A stretch of DNA of 64,000 nucleotides from the NCBI GenBank assembly GCA_009711825.1, contig VEMY01000010.1, forward strand, positions 1 through 64,000. The letters are read 5' to 3'. The stretch comes from Bacillota bacterium. Its GTDB lineage: Bacteria; Bacillota; Proteinivoracia; UBA4975; VEMY01. A program made the translations under genes and the position numbers. Within the stretch, counting starts at the first letter, position 1; each line of letters opens with the position of its first letter. Shown here one piece after another: positions 8,671-37,414 of the stretch. The notes under the pieces were generated by a model. The model ran no database searches and was not told the origin of the DNA. It worked only from the letters and a program-made list of their open reading frames with translations.

Positions 8671-8682
8671 GAATTATTATGT

Positions 8683-9023
8683 ATGAGCAAGCGTATAAGC
8701 CGGGTTCTGTACCCCTTTTGGGGTAGCAGTCATCTATCTGGGACATCAGTTGCCTGATGCCTCAAGCGACCATACCCGAGGGCCGGACGGGCCGCCCTTA
8801 TCCCTCCTATTCGGTCTTGCTCCGGGTGGGGTTTACCAAGCCAACCAGTCACCTGGCTGCTGGTGCGCTCTTACCGCACCGTTTCATCCTTACCCCAAAA
8901 GGGGCGGTTTAATTTCTGTGGCACTATCCTTGGGGTCACCCCCACTGGACGTTATCCAGCACCCTTGCCCTGTGGAGCCCGGACTTTCCTCAGCAAAAAG
9001 CCGCGACTGCCCAGCTTGCTCAT
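8683..9023 (-). ncRNA. rnpB: RNase P RNA
   Basis: The catalytic RNA of RNase P, which removes 5' leaders from pre-tRNAs. On the minus strand the 5' end has GAGCAAGC (complement of 9014-9021), followed by the universally conserved GAGGAAAGTCCGGGCTCC (complement of 8975-8992). The 3' end carries ACAGAACCCGGCTTATA followed by GCTTGCTC (complement of 8685-8692), which closes helix P1. Length of about 340 nt is normal. Exact ends are estimated from P1. Small open frames on the opposite strand here are spurious. Confidence 0.93.
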
Positions 9024-12899: not shown

Positions 12900-12976
12900 T
12901 GGTGACCCCTAGGGGATTCGAACCCCTGAATGCCAGCGTGAAAGGCTGGTGAGTTAAGCCGCTTCTCCAAGGGGCC
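12900..12976 (-). tRNA. tRNA-Glu (TTC)
   Basis: A 77-nt cloverleaf with a GGCCCCT/AGGGGTC acceptor, anticodon arm CCAGC-CTTTCAC-GCTGG giving TTC, T-arm GGGGTTCGAATCCCC and an encoded CCA. Third gene of the Asn-Met-Glu cluster. Confidence 0.95.
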
Positions 12977-12997
12977 ATTCATAAAACAACTGATAGG

Positions 12998-13073
12998 TGG
13001 TGGGCCCACCTGGACTCGAACCAGGGACCGACCGGTTATGAGCCGGTTGCTCTACCGACTGAGCTATAGGCCC
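12998..13073 (-). tRNA. tRNA-Met (CAT), probably elongator
   Basis: A 76-nt cloverleaf with a GGGCCTA acceptor, anticodon arm ACCGG-CTCATAA-CCGGT giving CAT, T-arm CCTGGTTCGAGTCCAGG and an encoded CCA. It lacks the initiator features. A CAT anticodon can also belong to tRNA-Ile2, but the body matches clostridial elongator Met better as far as I can judge. Confidence 0.85.
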
Positions 13074-13078
13074 AAAAA

Positions 13079-13153
13079 TGGCTCCCCAGGTAGGATTCGA
13101 ACCTACAGCCTACCGGTTAACAGCCGGTTGCTCTACCATTGAGCTACTGAGGA
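13079..13153 (-). tRNA. tRNA-Asn (GTT)
   Basis: A 75-nt cloverleaf beginning TCCTCAGTAGCTCAATGG, anticodon arm ACCGG-CTGTTAA-CCGGT giving GTT, T-arm GTAGGTTCGAATCCTAC, discriminator G and encoded CCA. First gene of the cluster. Confidence 0.95.
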
Positions 13154-16861: not shown

Positions 16862-16895
16862 AAGAAGTGCGACCCAGCGGTCGCACTTCTTTTTT
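16861..16895. terminator. Bidirectional terminator (dac / ppdK)
   Basis: A 13-bp stem AAGAAGTGCGACC / GGTCGCACTTCTT with a CAGC loop, followed by T's on the plus strand and preceded by A's. It serves the convergent carboxypeptidase and ppdK genes. Confidence 0.92.
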
Positions 16896-19533: not shown

Positions 19534-20344
19534 GACGCCTCCTTATAAGATCTAGTAATTTACCAGCTGTTTCCTCAACGGCCTTATTGGTAACATCAAA
19601 TATCGGACAGCCAATCCGCTTCATCACCCCTTGAGCAAACTCCAGCTCCGTAAATATGCGTTCCAAGGTGGCATAGTTTGACTGGTGACGCAACCCCATG
19701 GTAGCCAGGCGTTCGCGACGAATTTCATTTAATTGCTCAGGGGAGATTGTCAGCCCGACAATTTTATCCCGGGAAATGTTGTATAACTCCTCCGGCGGTT
19801 GAACTTCGGGCACCAGCGGCACATTGGCCACTTTAATTTGCTTATGAGCCAGATACATGCTCAAAGGCGTTTTTGAGGTCCTGGATACACCTATCAAAAC
19901 CAAGTCTGCCAGTCCCAGCCCCCGGGGATCTTTGCCATCATCGTATTTTACGGCAAATTCGATTGCCTCAACCCGTTTAAAATAATGCTCATCTAATTTT
20001 CGCACCAGACCTGGCTGTAACCGGGGCTGATTGGGCATAACCTGCTCCATCGCATCCATCATCGGCCCCATAACATCAACAAAGGGCAACTGGGCCGCCT
20101 CCGCATATTCGCGGGCCAATTTCCGGAGCTGGGGAATAACCATTGTATATACCACAACGCCGCCAGTTTCCTTGGCCTCGTTGACTGCTTCGCGGAGGGC
20201 TTCTTCGTCGGCGATAAACGGTATGCGCCGAACCTCCACCAATTCACCATTGAACTGACTGGCCGCAGCTTTTGCAACAAATTCACCAGTTTCGCCAATT
20301 GAATCGGACAACACATATACCACTGCCCGTTCCGAGTTAGTCAT
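19523..20344 (-). CDS. PPDK regulatory protein (ADP-dependent kinase/Pi-dependent phosphorylase)
   Basis: A 273-residue DUF299/PpsR-family bifunctional enzyme. It inactivates PPDK by phosphorylating a threonine next to the catalytic histidine, using ADP, and reverses this with phosphate. The family P-loop-like segment GVSRTSKTPLSMYLA is at about residue 145, and VLSDSIGETGE marks the N-terminus. The ATG at 20344 has GAGGAGGG eight bases upstream. It is coupled to ppdK downstream and overlaps the CBS-domain repressor gene upstream by eight bases. Confidence 0.93.
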   Translation of the reverse strand: MTNSERAVVYVLSDSIGETGEFVAKAAASQFNGELVEVRRIPFIADEEALREAVNEAKETGGVVVYTMVIPQLRKLAREYAEAAQLPFVDVMGPMMDAMEQVMPNQPRLQPGLVRKLDEHYFKRVEAIEFAVKYDDGKDPRGLGLADLVLIGVSRTSKTPLSMYLAHKQIKVANVPLVPEVQPPEELYNISRDKIVGLTISPEQLNEIRRERLATMGLRHQSNYATLERIFTELEFAQGVMKRIGCPIFDVTNKAVEETAGKLLDLIRRRHDE

Positions 20345-20960
20345 TGTATAAACCCTCCTCAAATTTGCCCTCAACCATTTCAGCCAAGATTTTCAGAACT
20401 ATATCTAAATCGAATCGTCCGGTGGGAATTTTAGAATCCAAGCTCTTGAGCACGGGCAAACAATTGACATGGCTCGCTTGCAGCTTGTTAATACCCGCCA
20501 ACAGGGTATCCCCTTCTTCAACCCATACAGTCTGGGCAAAACGGGTCATAACCATTTCCACCGGTACCGATTGTAAGTCATTACTCCCCAAAGAAACCTT
20601 CAACAAATCTTTCCGTGAGACAACCCCGCCCAGTTCTCCTGAACTATTGACTACAAACAACGTCCCCTGATCCTCAAGAAAAAGAGTCACAATTGCCTCA
20701 TAGACCGATTGCCCGGCCTCAATTACCACTGGATGTGCCTTTAGTTGCTTTATAGGTATTGAATCCAACTGGTCAGCTAGAAAACTCCGGCCCTTGCTGC
20801 CTGAATAAAAATACCCCACCCGAGGCCTGGCATCCAACAATCCTGCCATGGTCAGGATTGTCAAATCGGGCCGCAAGGTGGCACGGGTTAAATTAAAATG
20901 AGCAGCTATCTCTTCGCCAGTAATCGGTCCCTCATCCCGGACTAGGCGGAGGATCTCCAA
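20337..20960 (-). CDS. CcpN-like repressor (HTH plus two CBS domains)
   Basis: About 207 residues: an N-terminal winged helix (GPITGEEIAAHFNLTRATLRPDLTIL, closely CcpN-like), then two CBS domains that in CcpN sense nucleotides. CcpN controls gluconeogenic genes in Bacillus, and its gene sits before the PPDK regulator there too, which fits this context. The start is unclear. The TTG at 20960 is poorly placed because homology seems to continue upstream (NLSKRHLEIL in the same frame). No ATG, GTG or TTG precedes that stretch, but a GGCGGTGA lies just before possible ATT/ATC codons near 20978-20984. Confidence 0.85.
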   Translation of the reverse strand: MEILRLVRDEGPITGEEIAAHFNLTRATLRPDLTILTMAGLLDARPRVGYFYSGSKGRSFLADQLDSIPIKQLKAHPVVIEAGQSVYEAIVTLFLEDQGTLFVVNSSGELGGVVSRKDLLKVSLGSNDLQSVPVEMVMTRFAQTVWVEEGDTLLAGINKLQASHVNCLPVLKSLDSKIPTGRFDLDIVLKILAEMVEGKFEEGLYND

Positions 20961-22701: not shown

Positions 22702-23676
22702 CTAAACAGTTGCCACCAATGCGCCTTGTTGACGAACTACATCAATTACAGGTACCTGTAACTTGTCACGCACCAAATCCAAAAGCAATTGATGATCGAC
22801 AAAGTCAGGCGAGTATTGACCATTGGCCTCATTATATCGAGGAAAAAAGGGGTTTACAGTCACAGCACGCAGCTGCACAGATTTACGCACCTGAAAAACA
22901 CCCTGATAATTTGTGACCAGGGCAGCAGTGTCTATCAGATCGCCGCTTAATAGCAATTTTATCGAATCATTGAGCACGATAGCCGGTTCCCCGGGGAGCT
23001 TGGCCAACAGTTTTCGCAGCGGCTTGCTGTCCACAATTCCGCTAAATTCCACCAGCGGCTGTGAATCAATTTGTCGCAGAACATCGGGCACCTGCTGGTC
23101 CACCAACAAAGAGCCTAACTTCAGCGTCGGTCGGGGGTTCTCGCACTGAGGCAAAGTCATCAGAGTTTCAATCGCCTCTGCCTCTGCCGCCAGTGCTTGC
23201 AAATCCCTGTTTCGGGCTGCACCGGTGCTAATAACAAGACTGTCGGCTGCCGCCATTGGCGCCAGCCGATTCAAAGCCCCGTCCACAATCAGCATTTCCA
23301 AATCACGGGACCGCAGGTACTCAATAAACCACTTCAGCGCTCGTTCACTATTGGGACCGGCAAGCACCACCAGTCCCGGTGTTTGCACGCGGACCACCAC
23401 CAGCCTGCCTAAAGGTGTGCGTTGTTGGGTAAACTCAATGACCGCCAGGCCGGCGCTGCCCGCACTCAGGCATTTCTCCGCCGTCACCACCCAAACCCCG
23501 GCTGGCAAATGCAGGCGGGGTTTGGGCAAGCCGGTGACATTGTCCTTGCTCTCGCCATCATAACCGATGCTGGTAACCGCCAACCGGGAATAGTTCTGCC
23601 AGTTATTAATTAGACTGACTGTGGCAGTAGTCTTGCCGGTATTTTTGGCGGTTCCGGCAATTCCAAGAACACGCAT
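22702..23676 (-). CDS. P-loop NTPase-like protein beside cobalamin mutase
   Basis: A 324-residue protein I do not recognise by name. Its N-terminus has GTAKNTGKTT (residues 8-17), a P-loop of the G-x5-GKT kind seen in BioD/CobQ-type and MobB proteins, and further on LIVDGALNRLAPM, a Walker-B-like strand. It starts at the ATG at 23676, overlapping the mutase stop region, with GGCGG upstream, so the two are translated together. Inference: a chaperone or reactivase for the cobalamin enzyme, or a ligand-handling protein. Adenosylcobalamin mutases often have a P-loop partner, but this one is not a MeaB-type G protein by eye. Confidence 0.6.
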   Translation of the reverse strand: MRVLGIAGTAKNTGKTTATVSLINNWQNYSRLAVTSIGYDGESKDNVTGLPKPRLHLPAGVWVVTAEKCLSAGSAGLAVIEFTQQRTPLGRLVVVRVQTPGLVVLAGPNSERALKWFIEYLRSRDLEMLIVDGALNRLAPMAAADSLVISTGAARNRDLQALAAEAEAIETLMTLPQCENPRPTLKLGSLLVDQQVPDVLRQIDSQPLVEFSGIVDSKPLRKLLAKLPGEPAIVLNDSIKLLLSGDLIDTAALVTNYQGVFQVRKSVQLRAVTVNPFFPRYNEANGQYSPDFVDHQLLLDLVRDKLQVPVIDVVRQQGALVATV

Positions 23677-23677
23677 T

Positions 23678-25489
23678 TCAACCGCCGGTAACCGTGTCCT
23701 TACCAGAACGCCCGGGGTAGGCGCCCTCATCCCGGTTACCTAGCACGCCTTCGTGGAGGGCGGCGACAAAATCTCCCACCTGAACAGTTTCCCGCAGCGC
23801 TGTTTCAATGCCTGCAAGTAGTTCGCCGGCCATATCCTCGGCTTGCCGGGTCGGTTCAATTTTGGCCTGGCCCATAAACCGGAATGTTTCTCGCACGGAC
23901 TGGAGTGTATCAACTCTTGATGCCCCGGCAATCGGTCCCCCGGAATATGCTTCATCTGCCGATGCAATTGAGATGGCATCCACTCCCAATGAAGCGGCGA
24001 GGCCTGCGTGCAGACCGGTGCTCACCGAAGACTGGACCCGATCTTCATTTTGAGTCAAAAAGCCAATTGGCGCCCCTGGCCAAATCGGAGCATCAACAAT
24101 CTGCCGAAGGGCAATTAACTTCGCGGCATTAAAATCGATATAGTTATCTTCCATCGCTTTATTTATCATCACTTCCGGTGAATAGCAAAACAAAGGCTGC
24201 AAAATCGGTTTTGCGCCCAGTGCAAGGGCAAGATTAGCGACAATCAACATCCCGGCGAAGGCTTTATGGGCTGGCACTCCACATAGTTCTTCATTAGTAA
24301 CCACGTCAAAGGGCAGATTGTAGCGCGCGGCATACTTAATTGCAGCCACAGCGTCCACAGTCAGCCGAGACGGATCGGTGCCAGCGCCCAACGCGCCATA
24401 AACAATATTGATCTTTGTCAGATCAGCCCCGCACTCACCGGCCAGCACAACCGTCTCCGGTGTATTTAATCCCCTATGGGCGCGCACCTGCCAGAGACTG
24501 GATTCCTCCAAGGCAGAACGGATGCAACGGAGGTTTTCGGGAGTAATCACCGAGCCATCCTGCTGATGGGTGAGGTAGCCTTCCAAAAATCCTTCGGTTC
24601 TGGCGCCCCAGGACGGATCAAAATGCACCACCCCGTCAGCCCCCCATCCCTCAGCGATCTTGATATGGGCGATATCCATGAACGGGCAGCCGGTTCCATA
24701 TTGAACAAACACAGCAGGTTTTTTTCGGGTATGGCGAATATCCAGCGGTCGCATCCTGGCCCGGGTCCGCTCCACATACTGTTCCAGTGAATCCAGTTCT
24801 GCTTGTTCTAAACCTCTGGTTTGTGCATGCAAGCTTCCCTTGGTGTAGTAATCAGCAATCACGTCATCGCATAGTTTGGCATACTCTTTTCGCAATGACG
24901 CCGTATCCCTGCCCAGACCCTCCTGTTTTAGAATTTCCTCCCGAAGCTGAGCCCGCTCAACACCGGGACTGGAGCGTTTGGCGGACCACTCTATAATCTG
25001 GTTTGTTATGTTATCCAACATTGCCTTAATCGAGGCGTTATTAAAACTGTAATCATAGGTGCCAACCATGTCGATTTTTTTCTTTTCTGTGCCTTCCCGT
25101 GAGGGCTTAAACTCTCGCCCCTCCACAAAGGCAACCGCGGCTTCAACTGGCGTACCGGGGCCAAAACCGGCGTCAAACCCCAGTTCAGCCGCCAGTTCGG
25201 CACGGATCGCCATGCCGCCAACACCAAGCTTGACCTTTTCACGAACCCCGGCAGCATCGACAAGATCAACAAACCGGGCCAGTATTTCTTCGACTCCATA
25301 GCCCAAAGTCCTAGAGATCAGGACCACATCAGCTTTGTGCTCGATGATTCCATTGACAATTTCCTGGGGTGAATAGTCGGGAGGGAACAACCAAGTCTGA
25401 TGTCCGGCCTGTTCAAGGCCACGCCGGATCATCTTGAGCCCAATGTCGTGAACAGGATCCAAGGGTGCGAGCACAACTTTTTTTCCCAT
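23678..25489 (-). CDS. Fused cobalamin-dependent (glutamate-mutase-like) mutase
   Basis: A 603-residue protein. Residues 1-125 form a B12-binding Rossmann domain with the His-x-x-Gly of base-off cobalamin binding, but written D-P-V-H-D-I-G, i.e. DxxHxxG with one extra residue compared with the usual DxHxxG. It also has ISRTLGYG and GVGGM, as in the family. After a helical linker (126-240) comes a large alpha/beta domain (about 250-560) resembling the barrel subunit of glutamate-mutase-type enzymes (AHRGLNTPETVVLAGECGADLTK, SVSTGLHAGLAASLGVDA). I infer a carbon-skeleton or amino-group mutase with S- and E-like parts fused in one chain. The substrate is not known. Its ribosome site GGAGG lies in the tail of the 76-residue gene upstream. 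Confidence 0.68.
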   Translation of the reverse strand: MGKKVVLAPLDPVHDIGLKMIRRGLEQAGHQTWLFPPDYSPQEIVNGIIEHKADVVLISRTLGYGVEEILARFVDLVDAAGVREKVKLGVGGMAIRAELAAELGFDAGFGPGTPVEAAVAFVEGREFKPSREGTEKKKIDMVGTYDYSFNNASIKAMLDNITNQIIEWSAKRSSPGVERAQLREEILKQEGLGRDTASLRKEYAKLCDDVIADYYTKGSLHAQTRGLEQAELDSLEQYVERTRARMRPLDIRHTRKKPAVFVQYGTGCPFMDIAHIKIAEGWGADGVVHFDPSWGARTEGFLEGYLTHQQDGSVITPENLRCIRSALEESSLWQVRAHRGLNTPETVVLAGECGADLTKINIVYGALGAGTDPSRLTVDAVAAIKYAARYNLPFDVVTNEELCGVPAHKAFAGMLIVANLALALGAKPILQPLFCYSPEVMINKAMEDNYIDFNAAKLIALRQIVDAPIWPGAPIGFLTQNEDRVQSSVSTGLHAGLAASLGVDAISIASADEAYSGGPIAGASRVDTLQSVRETFRFMGQAKIEPTRQAEDMAGELLAGIETALRETVQVGDFVAALHEGVLGNRDEGAYPGRSGKDTVTGG

Positions 25490-25490
25490 T

Positions 25491-25721
25491 CTACTCAGCC
25501 TCCTTCAGCCAGCCATAATGATCTCCTGACCGGAAGATATATCCCCTGGCTCTAATACGGGCACCGGGTCCCCGATGTTGGCAAAAAACAATGTCAACAT
25601 CCTTCAACCCCATTTCACCCATCATTTTCCGGATGATATCCATACCTTCATCTTCATCGCGACAAATTACAAATGTCTCAATATCCAGCGCGTCCACAAT
25701 CCGTTCAAGATATTTATTCAC
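25491..25721 (-). CDS. Unknown 76-residue protein of the mutase operon
   Basis: A small acidic protein starting at a GTG at 25721 with GAGGAGGATG upstream. It is directly coupled to the mutase gene, which begins two bases after its stop. It has no signal peptide or membrane segment. The central DEDEGMDIIRKMMGEMGLKDVDIVFCQHRGPGARIRARGY may form a small alpha/beta fold. I do not recognise the family. Its fixed position before the mutase suggests a subunit or accessory protein, by analogy with the small subunits of aminomutases, but that is inference only. Confidence 0.6.
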   Translation of the reverse strand: MNKYLERIVDALDIETFVICRDEDEGMDIIRKMMGEMGLKDVDIVFCQHRGPGARIRARGYIFRSGDHYGWLKEAE

Positions 25722-25778: not shown

Positions 25779-26498
25779 TTATTCCTGCCCTGCCCGGGAC
25801 CAATATTTATGGACATCAGCAATCAAACTTTCTATATGATTTACCATCGCCAACTCAGCTGCCTCCGGGTTTCGCGCTTTCACGGCCTCAAAGATTTTCC
25901 GGTGATCGGCAAATACACGGCTATGCACCTCAGTACGGATAAAGCCCAGGACAGGGGACAATTGGCCGTCCTGACGAATCAGGTTAAGGGCAGCCCGCAG
26001 CACCTTGTTGCCGGCTGCTTCAGCCAACAATTCATGAAATGCCACATCCCCTTCCGCCACTGCATCGGTAGATGCAGTTTCATAGGTTTCAATCAGTGAG
26101 GACATTTGCAGAATCTGTTGATCACTGCTGTTGGCGGCTGCCAAGCGGGCAATTTCCCGTTCAATCGCTCGTCTGGCCACCAGGATTTCAATCAAATCAT
26201 CTTTGTTCCGGGAGCGAACCTGGCGGGCCAGCGCAATCGAATGACGCCGACGCATTTCCTCCCCCAACAGCTGCTTGATAAAGTTTATTCCTTGCTCAGT
26301 CAGTAACCGGCCACGATATCCCTGCCTGTCTGTATATCCTTTTATGTCCAGTTGCCGCAACAACCGGCCAACTGTTGCCTCGCTAACCTGGTAGCCGGCT
26401 GCTTCGATTACCTGGCTGGCCTTCCCGGATCCAATAGGCTCATCCGGATTGTTAAGCATGTATTGCATCAGGCAAATCACTTCCGCACGTTCTTCCAT
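25779..26498 (-). CDS. FCD-domain transcriptional regulator
   Basis: About 239 residues. The C-terminal half (about 90-235) is an all-helical FCD domain as in FadR/GntR regulators (LVARRAIEREIARLAA, GDVAFHELLAEAAGNKVL, DHRKIFEAVKARNPEAAELAMVNHIESL). These domains bind an organic acid ligand through a metal. The N-terminus is a winged helix that differs from ordinary GntR (ASQVIEAAGYQVSEATVGRLLRQLDIKGYTDRQGYRGRLLT). The ATG at 26498 follows AAAGGACTGG. It precedes the mutase operon on the same strand and diverges from a 144-residue gene, so it probably controls one or both. Confidence 0.8.
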   Translation of the reverse strand: MEERAEVICLMQYMLNNPDEPIGSGKASQVIEAAGYQVSEATVGRLLRQLDIKGYTDRQGYRGRLLTEQGINFIKQLLGEEMRRRHSIALARQVRSRNKDDLIEILVARRAIEREIARLAAANSSDQQILQMSSLIETYETASTDAVAEGDVAFHELLAEAAGNKVLRAALNLIRQDGQLSPVLGFIRTEVHSRVFADHRKIFEAVKARNPEAAELAMVNHIESLIADVHKYWSRAGQE

Positions 26499-26594
26499 TT
26501 TCGCACCAGTCCTTTCTCGCTTGCGAACTGAAAATATTATACCATAATTATCTAGCACAGCGGTCCCAGCACACCCTGCCAGGTTCTGAATATG

Positions 26595-27125: not shown

Positions 27126-28535
27126 TTACATCAGGAATACCGCAACAACAGCGGCAACAGCCAATCCGCAGATTACGGGAATGAAGTTTTTCCGCGCCAG
27201 ATCCATCGGGCTTACGCCAGCGATGCCGGCAGTTGCCACCAAACCAAATGCCCAGGCAGTCAGGGTTCCGCCACCGGCCCAGACAGCACCCATTTGGCCA
27301 ATCGCTGCCACAGCCTCGACACTGGCGTTTGCTGCCGGCGCCAAGGACTGGGCGAGACTTGCAGTCAGTGGCAGACCGGAGAAACCGGAGCCGTCTAGCC
27401 CGGTGATAATCCCGACAAACAGGTTGCCAAAGGACATAGCCAATCGATTGACCGGCAACGAGTTCGCAACCGCCGAACCCAAGTCAAAGAGGAGTTGCGG
27501 CGCGCCTTCGCCCAAAATAGCCACGGCATCGCCACCGCCAAGGAAGAAGAAGCCGGCGATTGGAATAACAGGTGCGAATATCTTGATTGCAAAGAGCATG
27601 CCTTCGCGCAAATGAACGACCACAGATTCCAGGGCTTTGTCCCCATCATTGGCAAAGCTCATGATAATCAAGAGCGCCGCGGCGGCTCCACCCAACAACG
27701 CGGTTGCGTCTCCACCCATAATTGGTGCAAGGGCAGTAGCTTCAAATGAAGCGTAAATCATGGTGCCAATTATCAGCATAAATGTTACCGGCACAATTAT
27801 CGCAAAAGCAATATTCTTGTTGGTCTTCTCAATCGGAGCATCATCGGCTGTCGCCGCAACCAAACCACTCTCTACATTCAGCCCCTGCTGGGTCTTGATT
27901 TCCTTGCGCATCATCAAATATGCGATGACACTGGCGACAAGACCAACCACCAACGACAAAATTGCCACTTCGTTGAGCATAGCGCCCGGTTCCAATCCGA
28001 TGGTCCGTTCACTGAGCCCTGGCGCTCCCTGAATGATTAAGTCGCCAGACAATGCCATACCATGACCAAGGATGTTTACCGACATGGCCGCAGCCATTGC
28101 CGGCAGTCCCGCTTTGATCGCTACAGGAAGGAGCATTACGCCAACCAGCGCGGTGGCCGGGGTGGGCCAGAAGAACAGTGCGCAGATGTACATCACACCA
28201 CCCAGAGCGAAGAAAGCAACATGGGGATTGACCATCAGGCGACGGGCAGGAGCCACCATCAATGTATCGGCGCCCAGCTTTGCCATCGACTTGAGCATTG
28301 CTACCATCAGTGCAATAACCAGCATGATGTCAAACAAGTCGCTGCCGGCTACCAATAGTGCACGGAACATTGCCTGCACGGCAGGAATAATACTGCCCTC
28401 GTTATACACCAGACCGATGACAAAGATTCCTACTATACAGGGTAAAACAACATCTCGTTTCAATACCATTGCCAAAACCACAGTCAGAACAACTAGCAAA
28501 TAAATCCAATGAGACAGGGTTAAAGTGACTTCCAT
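27126..28535 (-). CDS. Cassette A: multi-TM organic anion transporter
   Basis: A 469-residue integral membrane protein with about 12 hydrophobic segments. It begins with a strand-helix start like ion-transporter superfamily carriers (GntP, DcuC, CitMHS type). Two similar halves each have a loop with conserved small residues: FFWPTPATALVGV...SVNILGHGMALSGDLIIQGAPGL in the first and NLFVGIITGLDGSGFSGLPLTASLAQSL in the second. It probably moves a carboxylate or amino acid with Na+ or H+. It is closely similar to the 471-residue transporter of cassette B. Last gene of cassette A, ending at a terminator. The substrate is unknown. Confidence 0.78.
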   Translation of the reverse strand: MEVTLTLSHWIYLLVVLTVVLAMVLKRDVVLPCIVGIFVIGLVYNEGSIIPAVQAMFRALLVAGSDLFDIMLVIALMVAMLKSMAKLGADTLMVAPARRLMVNPHVAFFALGGVMYICALFFWPTPATALVGVMLLPVAIKAGLPAMAAAMSVNILGHGMALSGDLIIQGAPGLSERTIGLEPGAMLNEVAILSLVVGLVASVIAYLMMRKEIKTQQGLNVESGLVAATADDAPIEKTNKNIAFAIIVPVTFMLIIGTMIYASFEATALAPIMGGDATALLGGAAAALLIIMSFANDGDKALESVVVHLREGMLFAIKIFAPVIPIAGFFFLGGGDAVAILGEGAPQLLFDLGSAVANSLPVNRLAMSFGNLFVGIITGLDGSGFSGLPLTASLAQSLAPAANASVEAVAAIGQMGAVWAGGGTLTAWAFGLVATAGIAGVSPMDLARKNFIPVICGLAVAAVVAVFLM

Positions 28536-28583
28536 TAATTTTGGCCCCCAATATTTTATGGTTGATTTTCCCCGGGAAGGGAA

Positions 28584-29870
28584 TTACTTGGCCAATTGCT
28601 GGTTAAAAACGCCTGTCAAGTTAACGGTATCGACCCGGGCTGCCACCTCCTCTTTATCGGTGGTATACATACCCAGCTCTTTCAAGTGGTTGAACAATAC
28701 CGAGCCGGAGAAAGTGAACTTCTGTCCCATACCCTCAGGGGTTTCCATCCGTTCCCTGACATAGGCAATTGCCTCGCCAATCATCAGAGTCCGGGGCAGT
28801 TCCAGCAAGTCAAGGTTTAGGGCCTGACGAACGGCATTGTGCCCCGCAAGTGTACCGGTGATAATTGCCTCGGTATGACCGACCAACAGGCCAGCTTTCT
28901 CGCCACCGCAGAACAAGTTATCGACACCCTGTACCTGCAGCTTATCATCCCGAGGGGCCAGCGCCAGATAACGCATAGAGTTGCCAAGGCCGCCAGAATA
29001 GGGGTCTTCGTAACGGGCTTCTTCAAAGCCAGGAATCTGTCTCAGGGTTTCTAAGGGAAAATATGGCGCCATTAATTTTGCATGGCCGGTATCCAGCAAT
29101 ATTACATTGGCGGCAAACTCAGGCAGCGCATACTGCTGACACGCTTTTGATGAAAGTGCCTCTTCACCCTTTTGCAGTGCCTCGGGAATCGGCACAACGG
29201 CAACACCGGTCTCATCCAATTGCTTTACAATCTCCGGCGCCAGGGACTCTTTGAGAAGCTTGCAGGAGCCGCTCATTGCACCAATGGAGCCATCGGCTTT
29301 TTGGCCCATTTTTTCCTCTACACCTGCCTTGGCGGCAATACTTACGCGGCCGCCAAAGGTCGGACAGCGCAGCACGCACATGGCGCAACCATTGCCGTAT
29401 TTGCCACAGTTGGCCATTCCGCCTGCAGAACCGGTGGCTTCAACGACAACATCTGCATCCACGCTGCTGCCGTCGCTGAGTTTGACGGCGACAATCCTGG
29501 AGCCGTCTTTGATAACGTCTTTAGCTGTAGTTTCGAGGCGAATCTCAATCCTTCGGGCCAGCAACTCTATTTTTACAGCCGGTTCAATTTTCCCGATGTC
29601 ATACAGAGAAGCATGCTTGTGACCAGGAAACTCGATATCGCGGTGTCGGGAGACTGAGTCGGCGATTTGGAACAATTCACCGCCACCTAAAGCAATTGCT
29701 TCTTCTGTTGCAGTCCAACGGCCGTTGTTGCGCATGATTCCACCAACTAGACCTGTTCCTAAAAGCATATCTGTCCGTTCAACTAAGGTTACATCGGCGC
29801 CGGCCTTGGCGGCAGCAAGTGCTGCCGCCGTTCCGGACCAACCGCCACCAACAACCAGAACTTTCACCAT
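28584..29870 (-). CDS. Cassette A: FAD-dependent oxidoreductase with Cys cluster
   Basis: A 428-residue flavoprotein. The dinucleotide-binding GGGWSGTAAALAAAKAGA is at residues 8-25; the second FAD contact is VVEATGSAGG (142-151); a C-terminal FAD segment FCGGEKAGLLVGHTEAIITG is typical of the MnmG/TrmFO/GidA group. Unusually, four cysteines lie in C-x6-C-x2-C-x3-C at 155, 162, 165 and 169, conserved in the cassette B copy. They could hold an Fe-S cluster or be redox-active. The start follows AAGGAGG. It probably oxidises or reduces the cassette substrate; the reaction is unknown. Confidence 0.8.
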   Translation of the reverse strand: MVKVLVVGGGWSGTAAALAAAKAGADVTLVERTDMLLGTGLVGGIMRNNGRWTATEEAIALGGGELFQIADSVSRHRDIEFPGHKHASLYDIGKIEPAVKIELLARRIEIRLETTAKDVIKDGSRIVAVKLSDGSSVDADVVVEATGSAGGMANCGKYGNGCAMCVLRCPTFGGRVSIAAKAGVEEKMGQKADGSIGAMSGSCKLLKESLAPEIVKQLDETGVAVVPIPEALQKGEEALSSKACQQYALPEFAANVILLDTGHAKLMAPYFPLETLRQIPGFEEARYEDPYSGGLGNSMRYLALAPRDDKLQVQGVDNLFCGGEKAGLLVGHTEAIITGTLAGHNAVRQALNLDLLELPRTLMIGEAIAYVRERMETPEGMGQKFTFSGSVLFNHLKELGMYTTDKEEVAARVDTVNLTGVFNQQLAK

Positions 29871-29900
29871 TGAGTTATGCCTCCTTGTTGTTGAATAATC

Positions 29901-31343
29901 TTATTCGTGCGCATATTTGCAAACGATTTGAATCAGCCGCACCAGGGCTCTTACAGCCAGACGGGCCTTCTCTTCAATCAGCTGACCATTGTCATCAGTT
30001 GTGCCGAGACCAGGGGAAATGTAGATATTGGCATCATAGGCAACGGTGGGAATTACGCCCATCTGAGACAAGCCAGTTTGGAGCATATGGGAACCAGCAT
30101 ACATGTCTTCGATGGAGAAAATGGGGATGCCGGCGCCATTTGCCCATGTTCCTTCATAGTTTACTTCCACAGCTGTGGAGTTGTAGCTCTTGCTGATGAT
30201 AATACCTTTGAGCAATTCGGGGTCAAGTGCTGAAAATTCTTCTTTGACAATCTCGTAAAGCTCATCAACCGGCTGCTTCAGCACTTCAGGCTTATCTCTA
30301 AGAACCCGCAGAGCGGCAATTTGGCCGAGAAGAGCTTCTTTGCCCGGATCCTGGGTTACATAAGCAGCTTTCCCGTAGGAAGCAGTGGTGCCCCAGCGAT
30401 CGCCATGCATACCGAGAGCGCGACGGATTGGAACCATATACTCTTCTTTACCAATGACCAGACCGCTGGTCATCGAACCAGTCGCTTTGTCCATACTGTA
30501 GACGAAGACATCAGCGCCGGTCTTGCGGATATCGGTGCCGACAAACGGCAAGCCCCAGGCATTGTCAATTACATAAGGCACATCATAAGAATGGGCCACT
30601 TCAGCTAGGCCTTTCAGCAAACGGGGCACACCTTCACTATCCTTGTCGGCATAGCCGTAGCCAGGAGTTTCATAGCCAAGGGATGTGATTCCAGTTAGAT
30701 AATCGGCATGGCGTTCTGCTGTTTTAGCGATTTTCGCCAGCGTCTTGTCCACATCCACTTTGCTCAAAAGCGGCACCGGCCAATATTTGATGCCATGCAC
30801 TGGATACTCTGCGCCCACCATCGGCACAATCACTGCATCGGTATTGTTTTGACGCTTGCCGTAGAAACCCAGCTCCCCAGGAGTGCTGCCTCTGTCAGCG
30901 AACACGTCTTTGAACCGAGGCGGGAACGGACGACCATAAGCACCATGATGATGAAGATGCTTTTCGTAAGGCGCCAAATAACGGGCGCGGTAATTGTCTC
31001 CCCGTCCAAGATTGGGGGGAGTAAACAAAGCATCAAAGCTCACCCACAGTCCAGCTTCGCAGGTGTTAACAGGCGCGGCATCGTATTCATCGCCATAGAC
31101 GCTCTTGACCAGTTCACGAATTTCATCTACCAAGGTAGCCAGCGGCGTAACTTCTTTGGCACCTTTTTCAGCGAACTCGAGTATGTCGTCGCGCAAAGGC
31201 GCCGGACATCCGGATATAGCACCAGTAAGACCAAATTTGCCACGCCACTCCGCAGGGATACCAATCTCATCAGCAGCCTGTTTAGCTTCCTGATAAATGG
31301 CAGCCGTATTGGCTTGTAACTTTTTGTACATTTTGAACTTCAC
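29901..31343 (-). CDS. Cassette A: fold-type I PLP-dependent enzyme
   Basis: About 480 residues with a fold-type I aminotransferase-like core. The Asp that binds the pyridine nitrogen is in VIDNAWGLPF (about residue 260). The Schiff-base lysine is in YSMDKATGS (about 286), an S-x-D-K context like SelA-type and some lyase enzymes. TGAISGCPAPLRDDI and HGDRWGTTASYGKAAYVTQDPGKEAL are near-identical in cassette B. The long Gly/Pro/His-rich stretch around 110-165 is unusual. I start at the GTG at 31343, eight bases after AAGGAG. Candidate reactions are elimination, C-C or C-S lysis or transamination. Confidence 0.8.
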   Translation of the reverse strand: MKFKMYKKLQANTAAIYQEAKQAADEIGIPAEWRGKFGLTGAISGCPAPLRDDILEFAEKGAKEVTPLATLVDEIRELVKSVYGDEYDAAPVNTCEAGLWVSFDALFTPPNLGRGDNYRARYLAPYEKHLHHHGAYGRPFPPRFKDVFADRGSTPGELGFYGKRQNNTDAVIVPMVGAEYPVHGIKYWPVPLLSKVDVDKTLAKIAKTAERHADYLTGITSLGYETPGYGYADKDSEGVPRLLKGLAEVAHSYDVPYVIDNAWGLPFVGTDIRKTGADVFVYSMDKATGSMTSGLVIGKEEYMVPIRRALGMHGDRWGTTASYGKAAYVTQDPGKEALLGQIAALRVLRDKPEVLKQPVDELYEIVKEEFSALDPELLKGIIISKSYNSTAVEVNYEGTWANGAGIPIFSIEDMYAGSHMLQTGLSQMGVIPTVAYDANIYISPGLGTTDDNGQLIEEKARLAVRALVRLIQIVCKYAHE

Positions 31344-31401
31344 AACAAACACTCCTTAAAATTTTATATTTTGAGATTGAACTTATCGGGTCAATATGTA
31401 G

Positions 31402-31833
31402 CTACGTAGGTGGCTTAACGAATTTCAATTGTTGACCCAACTCCAAACCACGTTGTTTTCCACAAATGCGCTGCCCATGGAGAACAATATTGAGGTGATT
31501 GGGCATGTGAGTTTCATCAAACCCCACAATCGTTCCAATCACTTCACCGTCAACCTTCAGTTGATCACCGGCAACTAAAACACCGCTGTTGGTAAACTCC
31601 ACAAATCCTAGATACGCAATCGGGTTTACAATATCGCCCGGTTTTGCATGTTGATCAGTTACAATCAACTCATGAACCTGGTAGCGACTAACAGCTCGGG
31701 AAGGCTGGCCTATCAACTTTAAGTTGCGATTCTCATACTGACCAGTCAGCACAACCACCAAATCAGCCGTTACGTTAACTTTTGCAAAATAAGGATCTGA
31801 CTTGAACATTCGCTGCTTATACGGATCCGTCAC
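31402..31833 (-). CDS. Cassette A: unknown small beta-rich protein
   Basis: A 143-residue protein starting at GTG 31833 with GAGGAGGTG five bases upstream. Conserved blocks shared with the cassette B protein are SRAV...VHELIVTD, GDIVNPIAYLGF, and GFDETHMPNHLNIV. It has no transmembrane or signal sequence. I do not recognise a family. It is the first gene of the cassette in both copies, so it may bind the substrate or assist the PLP enzyme. A 6-bp inverted repeat (CTCATC...GATGAG, 31846-31860) overlaps the ribosome site and could affect translation. Confidence 0.72.
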   Translation of the reverse strand: MTDPYKQRMFKSDPYFAKVNVTADLVVVLTGQYENRNLKLIGQPSRAVSRYQVHELIVTDQHAKPGDIVNPIAYLGFVEFTNSGVLVAGDQLKVDGEVIGTIVGFDETHMPNHLNIVLHGQRICGKQRGLELGQQLKFVKPPT

Positions 31834-32676: not shown

Positions 32677-34092
32677 TCACATCATAAACAATATCGCTAC
32701 CAATGTCGACACAACCAGCCCTGCTACGACCGGGATAAAGTTTCTCCTGGCGAGCTCAATTGGATTAATCCCAGCGACACCGGCAGTGGCCACCAAACCA
32801 AATGACCAGGCCGCCAAAGTACCGCCGCCAATCCAGACAGCGCCCATTTGCCCAACGGCCGCCAAGGCTTCCACATTAACTCCAGCCGGTCCGCCCAGGG
32901 CCTGGGCCAATCCACCCACCAAAGGCAGGCCGCTAAACCCGGAGCCATCGAGACCGGTCAGGATGCCAATCAGCAGGTTGCCAAAGGCCAGCGAAAAAGC
33001 ATTCAAAGGTAGACTGTCGGCTATCATGTTTCCAATATCGAACAAGTATTGGGGAGCACCTTCCCCCAAAATATCGGCAACCGAGCCGGAACCCATTAAA
33101 AAGAATCCGGCGATAGGAATTACAGGCGCGAAGATCTTGGCAGCAAACAGCAGACCCTCCCGCAAAAAGCCGACTATTTCCTCCAGGGCTTTATTGCCAT
33201 AGCGTCCAAAACCGGCAATCAACATCAATAGAGTTGCCGTTCCACCCAAAAGCGCCTCCGACAAACCGCCACGTATCCTAACAACCGCGTCGGCTGATGA
33301 AGACGGGTCTGGTACGAATACCATTACCACGATAATCAACAGCAGCACTGCGGGCACAAACACGGCGAAGAATTTTGATACCCCGGTAATTGGAACCTTT
33401 TTTGCGTTGTCTTCATCGATGGCCTGGGTGTTAAAATCTTGGGTAGGCTTCTTGCCATAATCCCGCAACGTGAGGAGGTAGGCAACAGCGCCTGCCACCA
33501 AACCGGTGATCAACGACAAAATCGCAATTTCAGAGAGAAGCGCTTCTGTCGGTATCCCTGCCGCCCGGGCAGTTATCCCTGGTGCACCCTGGATTACAAG
33601 GTCACCGGATAACGCCATGCCGTGTCCGAAGATATTTACCGACATGGCAGCAGCAATCGGAGGCAGGCCTGCCCGCACTGCAATTGGCAGCAGAATCACT
33701 GCCACCAGAGCAGTGGCTGGCGTTGGCCAAAAGAACAGTGCTGCAGCATACATTGCTGCCCCCAGCACCCAGTAGGCCACCTTGGGGTTTTTCATTAGCG
33801 GTCTGACAGGTGAAACCATCAGCACATCAGCGCCCATGGTCTGAAGCGCTTTCAGCATCGCCACCATTAAGGCGATTATCAACATGATGTTGAAGAGCGA
33901 TGTCCCTGCTGTGAGCAAACCTTGGAACACAGTCTGGACCGCGGCAATCAGCGACCCATGATGTGACCAGCCCAGGAGCAGTATCCCCAAAATACAGGGC
34001 ACGACGACATCGCGTTTGAGAATCATGGCCAAGAGAACCACAACCAACGTGATTATATAGATCCAATGACCAATAGTCAGAGACCCTTCCAT
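32677..34092 (-). CDS. Cassette B: multi-TM organic anion transporter
   Basis: A 471-residue membrane carrier, paralogue of the cassette A transporter along its whole length. Shared segments include GHWIYIIT...VVVPCILGI, ALFFWPTPATALVAVILLP, SVNIFGHGMALSGDLVIQGAPG, and ILTGLDGSGFSGLPLVGGLAQAL. Differences cluster in the central loop (about 215-260), which in this copy is rich in Asp/Lys. It starts after AGGAGGGAA. Last gene of cassette B. Transport of an organic acid or amino acid coupled to cations is inferred. Confidence 0.78.
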   Translation of the reverse strand: MEGSLTIGHWIYIITLVVVLLAMILKRDVVVPCILGILLLGWSHHGSLIAAVQTVFQGLLTAGTSLFNIMLIIALMVAMLKALQTMGADVLMVSPVRPLMKNPKVAYWVLGAAMYAAALFFWPTPATALVAVILLPIAVRAGLPPIAAAMSVNIFGHGMALSGDLVIQGAPGITARAAGIPTEALLSEIAILSLITGLVAGAVAYLLTLRDYGKKPTQDFNTQAIDEDNAKKVPITGVSKFFAVFVPAVLLLIIVVMVFVPDPSSSADAVVRIRGGLSEALLGGTATLLMLIAGFGRYGNKALEEIVGFLREGLLFAAKIFAPVIPIAGFFLMGSGSVADILGEGAPQYLFDIGNMIADSLPLNAFSLAFGNLLIGILTGLDGSGFSGLPLVGGLAQALGGPAGVNVEALAAVGQMGAVWIGGGTLAAWSFGLVATAGVAGINPIELARRNFIPVVAGLVVSTLVAILFMM

Positions 34093-34110
34093 GTTATTCC
34101 CTCCTGCCTG

Positions 34111-35388
34111 TTAGGGCTTCTGCGCAAAAATATCCTCCACGCCAGCCTGGCGAACCCGGCGGGCAACTTCCGCGCGGTCTGTGATATACATATCCTTCTC
34201 CTGAAGGTGTTTAAACATTACAGCGCCGGAGAAAGTATATTTTTTTGTCATGCCTTCTTCGGTCTGCATTTGTTCGTTTACCCAGGCAATTGCTTCACCA
34301 ATCGCCAGGTCTCTGGGCACTTCAACCAGGTCTTTACCCATTACCTGACGCACGGCATTATGCCCGGCAATTGTTCCGGTGATTATCGCCTCAGTATGAC
34401 CAACCAACAGGCCGGCCTTTTCCCCGCCACAAAACAGGTTAGCTACCCCCTCAACCTGCATTGTATTTTTGCGAGGCGAAAGAGCCAAGTAACGCATCGA
34501 ATTGCCAACGCCACCTGAGTACGGATCTTCAAAACGTGCGTCCTCAAACCCAGGAATTTTCCGCAGCACTTCCAAAGGATAAAATGGACTCATCAATTTA
34601 GCGTGGCCCGTATCCAAAAGGATGATATTCTCTGCAAACTCAGATAACGCATATTGTTGACAGGCCTTAATCCCCAGCGAGCCCTCTTTACGCAATTCGG
34701 GGGGGATTGGTATTATTGCCACACCGGTGGAGTCCAAGCGGTCTACGATATCGGGAGCTAGGGAATCTTTATGCAGCTTGCAGGAACCGCTCATGGCGCC
34801 AATGCTGCCGTCCCCTTTCTTGCCCATCTTTTCTTTGACTCCGGCCTTGGCCGAAATCGATACCCGGCTGCCAAAGGTTGGACAGCGGTAGACGCACATT
34901 ACGCAGCCATTGCCGTATTTGGTGCAATTGGCCATGCCGCCGGCAGATCCCGTGGCTTCAATGTATATATCCGCTTCCATCTTACTGCCATCGTCTAATT
35001 GCACATGTTTAATTGTATCTCCGCTCATTTCCACATCTTTACCGCGGTTTACAAAATGCATCTTGACGCCGTACTCTTCCAAAAGACGACGGATCGCCGG
35101 CTCAATTTTTGAGACATCATAAAGCGACGCATGTTTGTGACCGGGGAATTCTATCTCCCGATGCCTAGATACCTGATCAGAGAGTTTGAACAAATCGCCG
35201 CCACCCATTGCAATTGACTCTTCGGTAGCAGTCCAACGACCGTTGTTGCGCATTATTCCGCCAACAAGGCCGGTTCCCAATAACATGTCGGTACGCTCAG
35301 CTAATTCAACTTCCGCGCCCAACTTAGCGGCAGCGATGGCAGCGGCTGTACCAGCCCAGCCACCACCGATTATGCCAACCTTAACCAT
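34111..35388 (-). CDS. Cassette B: FAD-dependent oxidoreductase with Cys cluster
   Basis: A 425-residue paralogue of the cassette A flavoprotein. It has the same GGGWAGTAAAIAAAKLGA dinucleotide fold, GTGLVGGIMRNNGRWTATEE segment, Cys cluster (CTKYGNGCVMCVYRC) and C-terminal FCGGEKAGLLVGHTEAI. I start at the second ATG (35388), seven bases after AGGAGG. That the cysteine spacing survives in both copies while surface loops diverge argues for a functional role such as a cluster or a redox pair. It is translated 12 bases after the PLP enzyme. Confidence 0.8.
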   Translation of the reverse strand: MVKVGIIGGGWAGTAAAIAAAKLGAEVELAERTDMLLGTGLVGGIMRNNGRWTATEESIAMGGGDLFKLSDQVSRHREIEFPGHKHASLYDVSKIEPAIRRLLEEYGVKMHFVNRGKDVEMSGDTIKHVQLDDGSKMEADIYIEATGSAGGMANCTKYGNGCVMCVYRCPTFGSRVSISAKAGVKEKMGKKGDGSIGAMSGSCKLHKDSLAPDIVDRLDSTGVAIIPIPPELRKEGSLGIKACQQYALSEFAENIILLDTGHAKLMSPFYPLEVLRKIPGFEDARFEDPYSGGVGNSMRYLALSPRKNTMQVEGVANLFCGGEKAGLLVGHTEAIITGTIAGHNAVRQVMGKDLVEVPRDLAIGEAIAWVNEQMQTEEGMTKKYTFSGAVMFKHLQEKDMYITDRAEVARRVRQAGVEDIFAQKP

Positions 35389-35400
35389 CATCCAACCTCC

Positions 35401-36858
35401 TTAGATTATGCCCGCATGCCGGGCGACAATTTCCATCAACCTGACCATGCCCCTAACGGCATAGCGGGCCCGTTCTTCTATCAACTGGCCATCGTCATCG
35501 GTGGTGCCCAGCCCCGGGGAAATATAGATATTGGCGTCATAGGCGATTGTTGGAATAATCCCCATTTGCGCCATACCGGTTTGCAGCAGGTGGGATCCGC
35601 CATACATATCCTCAATTGAGAATATTGGCATACCAAGCCCTTCCTTCCAAGTCTTTTCGTAATTAATCTCGACAGCGGTGGAATTGTAAGTCTTGGAAAT
35701 AATCAGACCCTTACCGATACGGGAATCAATTTGATCAAACTCCTCTTTAACGACTTTGTACAGGTCGTCAACAGGCTTGGTCAGAACTTCCGGACGCTCC
35801 TTGAGAGCCCGCAGTGCGGCAATTTGACCCAACAGTGCCTCTTTACCAGGATCCTGGGTCACATATGCTGCCTTACCGTAAGAGGCTGTGGTGCCCCACC
35901 GATCGCCATGCATACCAAGAGCGCGACGAATGGGAACCATATATTCTTCTTTGCCGATGATCAAGCCGCTGGTTGCTGATCCTGTTGCCTTATCCATGCT
36001 GTAAATGATTACATGGGAACCGGTTTTACGAATATCTGTGCCAACAAACGGCAACCCCCAGGCATTATCTGTGATATATGGCACATCAAACTCTTCCGCA
36101 ATCTGAGCAAGGTACTTCTGCAACAGTGGTATTCCTTCCTCATCATGCTCGCCATAACCATAGCCGGGCGTTTCATAGCCAAGGGATGTAAAGCCGGTGA
36201 GACAATGCGCATGCCGTTCCGCGACCATGGCAATTTTCTCAGCGGAAGCTTCAGCATCAACTTCTGTCAATAGTGGCACCGGCCAGTATTTTATACCGTG
36301 AACATCATATCTAGCACCTTCCAGCGGCACGATAATTGTGTCGGTATTGTTCTGGCGCTTGCCATAAAAACCAAGTTCGCCCGGTGTTGACCCCCGATCA
36401 GCAAGAATGTCTTTAAACCGACCCGGGAACGGACGGCCATATGAACCCTGGTGATGCAAATGTTTTTCATACGGGGCGATATAGCGAGCGCGGTAGTTGT
36501 CACCTCGCCCCTGCATTGGCGGCGTGAACAGAGTATCAAATGAAACCCAAATTCCCGCCTCACACGTATTTACCGGGCAGGCATCGTATTCGTCACCATA
36601 AACGGACTTCACCAAGTCTCTGATGTCGTCAACGAGCTTGGCCAGGGGGATAACTTCGGTGACTCCTTCTTCGATAAAATTTCGGATATCGTTGCGCAAA
36701 GGCGCCGGGCATCCGGAGATGGCGCCAGTCAAGCCAAACTTGCCCCTTAATTCCGATGGAACACCGATTTCATCTGCCGCCTTGCGCGCCTCTTCATAAA
36801 TTTTGGGGATGCTTTGCTGTAAATGTTTGTACATTTGAAACTTAAACTTATCCGCCAT
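35401..36858 (-). CDS. Cassette B: fold-type I PLP-dependent enzyme
   Basis: A 485-residue paralogue of the cassette A PLP enzyme. The TDNAWGLPF Asp and the YSMDKATGS lysine (about residue 290) are kept, as are TGAISGCPAPLRND, RGDNYRARYIAPYEKHLHHQGSYGRPFP and HGDRWGTTASYGKAAYVTQDPGKEAL. Near-complete conservation of the active-site segments suggests the same chemistry on the same or a very similar substrate. Start is the ATG at 36858 behind GAGGAGG. Second gene of cassette B. Confidence 0.8.
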   Translation of the reverse strand: MADKFKFQMYKHLQQSIPKIYEEARKAADEIGVPSELRGKFGLTGAISGCPAPLRNDIRNFIEEGVTEVIPLAKLVDDIRDLVKSVYGDEYDACPVNTCEAGIWVSFDTLFTPPMQGRGDNYRARYIAPYEKHLHHQGSYGRPFPGRFKDILADRGSTPGELGFYGKRQNNTDTIIVPLEGARYDVHGIKYWPVPLLTEVDAEASAEKIAMVAERHAHCLTGFTSLGYETPGYGYGEHDEEGIPLLQKYLAQIAEEFDVPYITDNAWGLPFVGTDIRKTGSHVIIYSMDKATGSATSGLIIGKEEYMVPIRRALGMHGDRWGTTASYGKAAYVTQDPGKEALLGQIAALRALKERPEVLTKPVDDLYKVVKEEFDQIDSRIGKGLIISKTYNSTAVEINYEKTWKEGLGMPIFSIEDMYGGSHLLQTGMAQMGIIPTIAYDANIYISPGLGTTDDDGQLIEERARYAVRGMVRLMEIVARHAGII

Positions 36859-36924
36859 TAACTTGGTAGCCTCCTCAGGAATAATTTTTCAAAGCCTACA
36901 GGTAGTATGCGTAACTCGAATTGC

Positions 36925-37353
36925 CTAATATTCACCCTGCTGAAAAACAACATCTGCTCCCAGCTCTAGTCCCAGTTCTTCGCCACTGATTCGCTCTCCA
37001 GAGACAATAATATTCAAGTGATTGGGCATATGCGTCTCATCGAAGCCGGATAACATTCCCACCTCTTTACCTGCAACCTTCAGGCGATCGCCAGTCACCA
37101 GAATCCCCGGCGCCGTAATCGCAAAAAAACCAAGATAAGCAATTGGATCAACCTTGTCTCCAGGCTGCGCTTGCTGGTCGGTAATAATTAATTCATGAAC
37201 TTCTCCAAGATTAACCGCCCTGGATTTTGGTTTAATTAACTGCAGCCCTCGTTGCGGATACTTTCCGCGCAGCACCACAACCAATTCGCCTTTCACATCT
37301 GTTTTCTCAGCATATGGATTCGCCTTAAACATTCCGCTTGCATAGGGATCCAT
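36925..37353 (-). CDS. Cassette B: unknown small beta-rich protein
   Basis: A 142-residue paralogue of the first protein of cassette A: VVVLRGKYPQRGLQLI, SRAV...VHELIITD, DPIAYLGF and GFDETHMPNHLNII are shared. I start at the ATG at 37353 with GGAGGTG upstream; an upstream in-frame start at 37398 lies in the terminator of spmB. First gene of cassette B. Only 29 bases separate it from that terminator's T-tract, leaving little space for a separate promoter. Confidence 0.72.
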   Translation of the reverse strand: MDPYASGMFKANPYAEKTDVKGELVVVLRGKYPQRGLQLIKPKSRAVNLGEVHELIITDQQAQPGDKVDPIAYLGFFAITAPGILVTGDRLKVAGKEVGMLSGFDETHMPNHLNIIVSGERISGEELGLELGADVVFQQGEY

Positions 37354-37382
37354 GCCAACACCTCCATGTTTAACTTTCCCAA

Positions 37383-37414
37383 CAAAAAAACCAGACATTC
37401 GTTAAAATGTCTGG
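37383..37414 (-). terminator. Terminator after spmB, just before cassette B
   Basis: Minus-strand hairpin CCAGACATT ... AATGTCTGG followed by seven T's. It ends the dacB-spmA-spmB transcript 29 bases before the cassette B start codon. Confidence 0.85.

Follow-up and report, generated by a model that had tools for sequence, protein, structure and literature searches.

What enzyme is encoded by an open reading frame that joins a B12-binding domain with an unusual cobalamin motif to a mutase-type barrel, and what might it do beside the gene cassettes that lie next to it? In the window (the whole stretch of 64,000 nucleotides analyzed here), this 603-residue frame is read from 25489 to 23678 on the minus strand. 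Its predicted product is an uncharacterized B12 enzyme of anaerobic bacteria, akin to the B12-and-B6 aminomutases and with its modules in a new order. No paper on the mutase family was found in the open-licence literature. An initial annotation of this DNA had proposed a fused cobalamin mutase; it gave no strand and did not include the small dimerisation subunit, the KamB-like reactivase or the apparent loss of the pyridoxal phosphate (PLP) site described below.

Homologues were collected by a pattern scan of contigs, with one genome per species, which reaches close relatives only and returned 35 loci with Bacillota-type titles, and their homologues are 56–73% identical to the window mutase. 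These loci belong to Tepidanaerobacter, Thermosediminibacter, Fervidicola, Thermovorax, Heliobacterium, Heliorestis, Halobacteroidaceae and several metagenome-assembled genomes (MAGs), and the carriers include the cultured species Heliobacterium mobile, Thermosediminibacter litoriperuensis and Fervidicola ferrireducens. Of 398 genomes sampled from the phylum of the window, 38 carried the mutase in a profile search. Over all loci, the family set comprises 92 open reading frames, 63 of them non-identical.

Architecture and nearest relatives

The large subunit (23678..25489, minus strand) consists of a B12-binding (Rossmann) domain (residues 1–126; 25112..25489, minus), a helical region (residues 148–230; 24800..25048, minus) and a barrel (residues 255–545; 23855..24727, minus). 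That a B12 domain and a barrel are fused in one 603-residue chain, as first proposed, was confirmed: Pfam places PF02310 on residues 5–119 (E 6.3e-14) and, weakly, PF09043 (Lys-AminoMut_A) on residues 225–380 (E 0.0068), these being the only matches at E ≤ 0.1, and fold searches with the AlphaFold model (mean pLDDT 82.6) also back both domains. At the same threshold the barrel has no match to the MM-CoA mutase Pfam family, and the mutase has no match to the GlmE family in Pfam or NCBIfam scans.

The nearest relative by profile alignment is the alpha subunit of lysine 5,6-aminomutase (LAM), onto which residues 156–603, including the helical region, align end to end. The LAM alpha (KamD) profile matched at E 4.1e-6 over 420 columns and GlmE at E 0.039 over 119 columns (hhalign), and the KamE B12-domain profile matched at E 1.6e-19; these are one-to-one comparisons of shallow profiles, to be read against seven unrelated control families, whose best E was 0.036 against the whole mutase and 0.008 against the B12 part alone. 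GlmE is ruled out as the closest sequence family by its E of 0.039, and the earlier label of a glutamate-mutase-like barrel has to be revised, since by sequence LAM alpha is nearest and GlmE comes second by fold only. In the predicted fold of residues 148–603, LAM alpha is the best match (VIA Z 28.3–28.6, rmsd 3.4–4.2, 379–397 residues aligned), and GlmE scores Z 24.2–24.3 and OraE Z 22.4–22.6. The B12 domain resembles corrinoid and mutase B12 domains by fold (1y80, VIA Z 19.3 over 122 residues with rmsd 2.0; 4jgi, Z 18.9). Membership in a characterized mutase family was not found: NCBIfam models NF052385 (50.7 bits, cut-off 280) and NF040743 (40.2 bits, cut-off 800) score far below their cut-offs, the PLP lysine is absent, and the GlmE profile match is as given above. 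The genome also encodes KamDE, OraSE and GlmE elsewhere, and the mutase is therefore an additional system.

A gene for a 76-residue protein (25491..25721, minus), with a GTG start, ends one nucleotide before the mutase start. Of 53 non-redundant loci (56 were given and duplicates dropped), 50 have this gene; two of the misses (L033 and L050) have no upstream sequence, and L105 is a real absence beside a mutase. OAM_dimer was the commonest Pfam match, hitting 10 of 16 members at E ≤ 1 (best E 3e-4; the next family hit 3 of 16), and the window's own small protein matched no Pfam family. Compared with the KamE profile it gave E 8.7e-6, the next best of ten targets being GlmE at 0.0013. With its predicted fold (mean pLDDT 88.6), the top seven Foldseek rows are LAM or OAM (D-ornithine 4,5-aminomutase) chains (E 0.006–0.016), as are the top six VIA rows (Z 6.4–7.8, 51–72 residues, rmsd 1.5–4.9; the next row scores 5.8); comparison of the small protein with solved structures gave chance-level matches. 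The window protein's own scores (those Foldseek E-values and VIA Z below 8) would be weak if taken alone, and because several modest lines of evidence combine with constant adjacency, we read it as a predicted LAM/OAM-type dimerisation domain encoded as a separate chain.

By profile and fold, homologues of the barrel, helical, dimerisation and B12 modules of LAM and OAM are all present. Pfam on the genome's own KamD and KamE gives the LAM order as helical–barrel on one chain and dimerisation–B12 on the other; its own OraE reads barrel–dimerisation–B12, with the helical part of OAM on a separate chain that we take to be OraS. The predicted order in the mutase family is dimerisation on one chain and B12–helical–barrel on the other, a third arrangement of these modules that, read along the genes, is a circular rearrangement of the LAM/OAM order.

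The B12 motif and the PLP site

Proteins that bind adenosylcobalamin (AdoCbl) base-off/His-on carry the signature DxHxxG-x(41-42)-SxL/T-x(26-29)-GG. The initial annotation had read the motif of the window protein as D-P-V-H-D-I-G and asked whether this DxxHxxG spacing is family-wide. The frame indeed reads L10-D11-P12-V13-H14-D15-I16-G17 (D11 to G17 at 25439..25459, minus), and DPVHD[IVM]G occurs in 62 of the 62 non-identical homologues that reach the N-terminal end, with DxHxxG there in none; the 63rd homologue (L050) is cut by a contig end. Fifty-eight of these motifs came from the first pattern and four more from inspection (Phe before the Asp, or Met within the motif). A sequencing error is ruled out because the motif is present in every homologue reaching that end. 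KamE/OraE-like proteins of the same loci carry DxHxxG in 15 of 15 cases (14 DAHTVG and one DEHSVG). Relative to the canonical signature, His, Gly, S-[RK]-T (SRT) and GG are normally spaced in 58 of 63 homologues (the other five, including L050, lie outside the pattern) and the Asp comes one residue early in 62 of 62. The proposed Asp shift stands, and the bulge suggested with it is only partly borne out: in alignment with 1y80 the loop ahead of the His is shorter by one residue, which puts Pro where Asp normally sits and moves Asp one position toward the N-terminus. Model residues 11–20, which cover this region, have a mean pLDDT of 69.

The PLP contacts listed for LAM are Lys144, Arg184, Gly187-Gln188-Ser189, Tyr236, Ser238, Tyr263, Arg268 and Asn299 (PMC3958899), and the genome's KamD and KamE were matched to this numbering with offsets of +3 and +14. 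Mapping by profile alignments, with conservation over 38 sequences, retains one of these ten listed contacts, Tyr263, in one profile alignment at ~24% identity with an uncertain nine-residue gap at the phosphate loop. Lys144 corresponds to Leu25 (36 Leu and one Met in 37 sequences), Arg184 to Asp291 (38/38), Tyr236 to Ala337 (37/38), Ser238 to Arg339 (38/38), Arg268 to Gly/Ala369 and Asn299 to Leu402 (38/38), Gly187-Gln188-Ser189 falls in the gap, and Tyr263 is kept as Tyr364 (38/38). The Rossmann-domain PLP lysine of LAM and OAM (Lys144 and Lys629) is absent from the mutase family; the KamE segment that bears it is missing, and the KamE stretch there carries an eight-residue insertion. The PLP pocket is apparently gone.

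An alternative is that the protein is a B12/PLP aminomutase for a new substrate, in which another barrel lysine (K277 or K359) holds PLP beside a reshaped phosphate site. Its nearest relatives are PLP aminomutases, the stacking tyrosine is invariant as Tyr364, and neither K277 nor K359 varies across the 38 sequences, so that these residues could in principle bind PLP differently, which counts against a PLP-free enzyme. On the alignment, however, both phosphate arginines, the phosphate loop, Ser238, Asn299 and the Rossmann lysine are replaced or missing, with an invariant Asp in place of Arg184 and an invariant Arg in place of Ser238, and we consider this alternative unlikely.

The strand equivalent to that of Ser238 carries W[QS]VRAHRG[LV]N in 62 of 63 homologues (L007 lies outside the pattern). 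The corresponding GlmE strand reads QVRHGTPD in 11 of 11 sequences, resembling the WQVRAHRG of the mutase. Glutamate mutase holds its substrate carboxylates with Arg66, Arg100 and Arg149, and the arginine of QVRHGTPD is residue 149, one of these substrate-carboxylate ligands. The shared QVR strand motif suggests that an anionic substrate may be held directly by the protein.

The conserved gene set

On the minus strand, the window's gene set runs in the order cassette b, cassette a, regulator, small subunit, mutase and KamB-like reactivase. The reactivase is a P-loop ATPase (22702..23730, minus) that scores 193.5 bits against NF052386 (cut-off 210). Relatives begin at a Met equivalent to the ATG at 23676, which lies one nucleotide after the mutase stop and is probably where the reactivase truly starts; the 53-nucleotide overlap of mutase and reactivase in the list of open reading frames is probably an annotation artefact. 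If the reactivase begins at 23676, the small subunit, mutase and reactivase genes are packed with one-nucleotide spacers (22702–25721, minus). An FCD-domain transcriptional regulator lies at 25779..26558 (minus; PF07729).

Cassette a (all minus) encodes a membrane protein, probably a transporter (27126..28535; read from sequence, no Pfam family), an FAD-dependent (GidA/TrmFO-like) enzyme (28584..29870; PF01134), a PLP enzyme distantly related to DgaE/SelA (29901..31352) and DUF6917 (31402..31833; PF21891, 153 bits). Cassette b (all minus) encodes the same four proteins: a membrane protein, probably a transporter (32677..34092; 58% identical to the cassette a copy), the FAD enzyme (34111..35391; 69% identical), the PLP enzyme (35401..36858; 75% identical) and DUF6917 (36925..37398; PF21891, 153.4 bits). 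The four-gene cassette is thus present twice (27126–31833 and 32677–37398, minus), yet the mutase, small subunit and reactivase are single. Just downstream of the set, pyruvate phosphate dikinase, its regulator and a CcpN-like regulator (16894–20960, minus) belong to ordinary central metabolism. The window also holds a T-box leader, an RNase P RNA and three tRNAs (3388–3586, plus; 8680–9022, minus; 12903–13153, minus).

Within 9 kb and on the same strand in the 53 non-redundant loci, we found the small gene in 50, the reactivase in 46, the PLP enzyme in 45, the regulator in 39, DUF6917 in 38, the FAD enzyme in 35, RidA in 29 and the transporter in 13. When the count is restricted to the 38 loci whose flanks extend 6 kb or more upstream and 4 kb or more downstream, it becomes 38 (small), 35 (PLP enzyme), 33 (reactivase), 31 (DUF6917), 29 (regulator), 25 (FAD enzyme), 24 (RidA) and 10 (transporter). 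The window's set contains no RidA gene. Genes missing near the mutase are often elsewhere in the same genome, and in G030 the PLP enzyme, RidA, DUF6917 and FAD genes lie together on a different contig from the mutase. Among the 398 genomes, the PLP enzyme occurs in 39 (all 38 mutase genomes and G061), as does DUF6917 (all 38 and G386). A link between the mutase and the neighbouring cassettes, suggested in the initial annotation, is upheld by this co-occurrence.

RidA-family proteins dispose of the enamines and imines that PLP enzymes generate, and the DgaE reaction is an elimination of the kind that yields them; for these reasons we read the PLP enzyme as a putative neighbouring step. Its proposed function draws on a distant DgaE/SelA resemblance (TIGR01437, 36 bits against a cut-off of 385), and comparison with solved structures gave only short matches to PLP enzymes (best E 9e-6). 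The mutase could instead act on a PLP adduct that this neighbouring enzyme makes or shares with it, so that B12 and PLP would come from two proteins. Both proteins co-occur in 38 of 38 genomes, and regulator, small subunit, mutase and PLP enzyme form a minimal unit in L035, L037, L038, L039 and L092, but consecutive steps explain the co-occurrence equally well and an ordinary fold-type I PLP enzyme keeps its cofactor in its own site, which makes an adduct shared between proteins quite improbable.

Several further observations concern the other members of the set. In L023, L025, L026, L027, L041 and L052, the reactivase is followed by a PyrK-like electron-transfer protein and then a second FAD enzyme, and the PyrK-like neighbour suggests that the FAD enzyme may pass electrons to NAD. 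DUF6917 is absent from 14 control genomes, and its comparison with solved structures gave chance-level matches. It was also considered as an OrtA-like thiolase partner and rejected, with 0 of 15 members matching PF22010 at E ≤ 10. The transporter-like family (~465 residues) had no convincing Pfam match in eight members. No riboswitch pointing to a substrate was found beside the set in the window or in 14 of the 35 pattern-scan loci, and a SAM riboswitch in L037 belongs at another gene.

Loci with the PLP enzyme or DUF6917 apart from the mutase have mixed contexts and point to no common substrate. In L117 (G284:C9, 8423–14923), a second DUF6917 lies beside genes resembling a TctA-type tripartite tricarboxylate transporter, a ThDP enzyme and a regulator of the same type, names that are a reading of sequence starts. 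Diverged PLP-enzyme paralogues (29–53% identical) lie away from the mutase in L113, L114, L116 and L118, the one in L113 together with RidA, short-chain dehydrogenases and branched-chain-type ABC genes (named likewise).

Proposed mechanism and comparison with known systems

We assign a probability of roughly 0.55 to a PLP-independent AdoCbl radical mutase that is maintained by the KamB-like reactivase and linked to the DgaE/SelA-like PLP enzyme. Architecture, conservation, missing PLP residues (in one profile alignment) and gene linkage are computed; for subunit assembly, cofactor use, reaction type and order of steps we infer the following. The large and small proteins would form an AdoCbl-dependent radical mutase from the modules of lysine 5,6- and ornithine 4,5-aminomutase, with His14 holding AdoCbl base-off. 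Co–C homolysis would deliver a 5'-deoxyadenosyl radical to the barrel, where it would abstract a hydrogen from the substrate, a small carboxylated compound (probably an amino acid), and so set off a 1,2-rearrangement. Lacking the PLP lysine and almost the entire PLP pocket, the enzyme would run without PLP, an aminomutase relative with glutamate-mutase-like chemistry. The KamB-like ATPase would swap out damaged cofactor, and the product would go to, or the substrate come from, the DgaE/SelA-like PLP enzyme. Pathway partners would be DUF6917, in most cases the FAD enzyme and often RidA, which would clear enamine or imine products. The whole set may represent an undescribed breakdown pathway of anaerobic Bacillota.

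The predicted mutase is related to LAM and OAM but fails their defining PLP features, and it most likely works like glutamate mutase, yet outside that family. Points against a PLP-independent radical mutase are that the reactivase scores below the KamB cut-off, that 7 of 53 loci have no reactivase within 9 kb, and that no small gene was found in L105; the altered Asp spacing, which leaves an Asp11–His14 contact putative, also counts against it.

A role in corrinoid-based methyl transfer or in corrinoid sensing, in place of mutase activity, would account for the good fold scores of the B12 domain against methyltransferase corrinoid proteins (1y80 and 4jgi), but we think it very improbable, with the barrel and helical region aligning with LAM alpha end to end, a dimerisation module present and a reactivase of the type that serves AdoCbl aminomutases. 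A plain diverged lysine 5,6- or ornithine 4,5-aminomutase, for which the homology across all modules speaks, is scarcely credible in a genome that holds complete KamDE and OraSE elsewhere and for a protein with such low NCBIfam scores and no PLP lysine.

More tentatively, and at somewhat short of even odds, the PLP-independent mutase family would be a third, PLP-free branch of the B12/B6 aminomutases, with a new chain order, glutamate-mutase-type chemistry, an undescribed pathway (mutase, DgaE-like PLP enzyme, DUF6917, FAD enzyme and RidA) in anaerobic Bacillota and an intermediate place in evolution, with glutamate mutase on one side and the PLP aminomutases on the other. There are few AdoCbl mutases, and the discovery of another has tended to bring a new metabolic route to light. 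If PLP-free, the family would separate features that are coupled in the known LAM and OAM enzymes, and the way in which radical B12 catalysis acquired (or lost) PLP would become testable. The family also gives a context to DUF6917 and the unnamed PLP enzyme, each present in all 38 mutase genomes and in just one other of 398.

Among known systems, the MCM family (MCM, IcmF, HCM) shares the B12-domain and barrel folds (4r3u, Z 18.5; 1req, Z 17.5), and IcmF also has an N-terminal B12 domain; the mutase differs in having neither an MM-CoA mutase Pfam match in its barrel nor a G-protein domain. Glutamate mutase (GlmE/GlmS; 1CB7, 1I9C, 6H9E) is closer in barrel fold, shares the QVR...HG...TP[DE] motif on one barrel strand and, as the mutase probably is too, is PLP-free. 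However, the GlmE profile match is not significant, glutamate mutase has no dimerisation module and keeps GlmS separate, and the window genome carries its own GlmE. OAM (OraS/OraE; 3KOW, 3KP0, 3KP1) has the same modules, a related barrel and, like the mutase, pairs a small free-standing subunit with a large one that holds the B12 domain and the barrel. Its separate chain, presumably OraS, is the helical region, whereas that of the mutase family is the predicted dimerisation domain; OraE carries its B12 domain at the C-terminus and the mutase at the N-terminus, and the mutase family lacks the PLP lysine. LAM (KamD/KamE; 1XRS, 8T0V, 9Q1A) is the most similar system in its helical region and barrel, B12 domain, dimerisation domain and KamB-type reactivase. 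The mutase departs from it in having DxxHxxG rather than DxHxxG, in lacking the PLP lysine and nine of the ten listed PLP contacts, and in pairing a free dimerisation chain with B12–helical–barrel where LAM pairs helical–barrel with dimerisation–B12.
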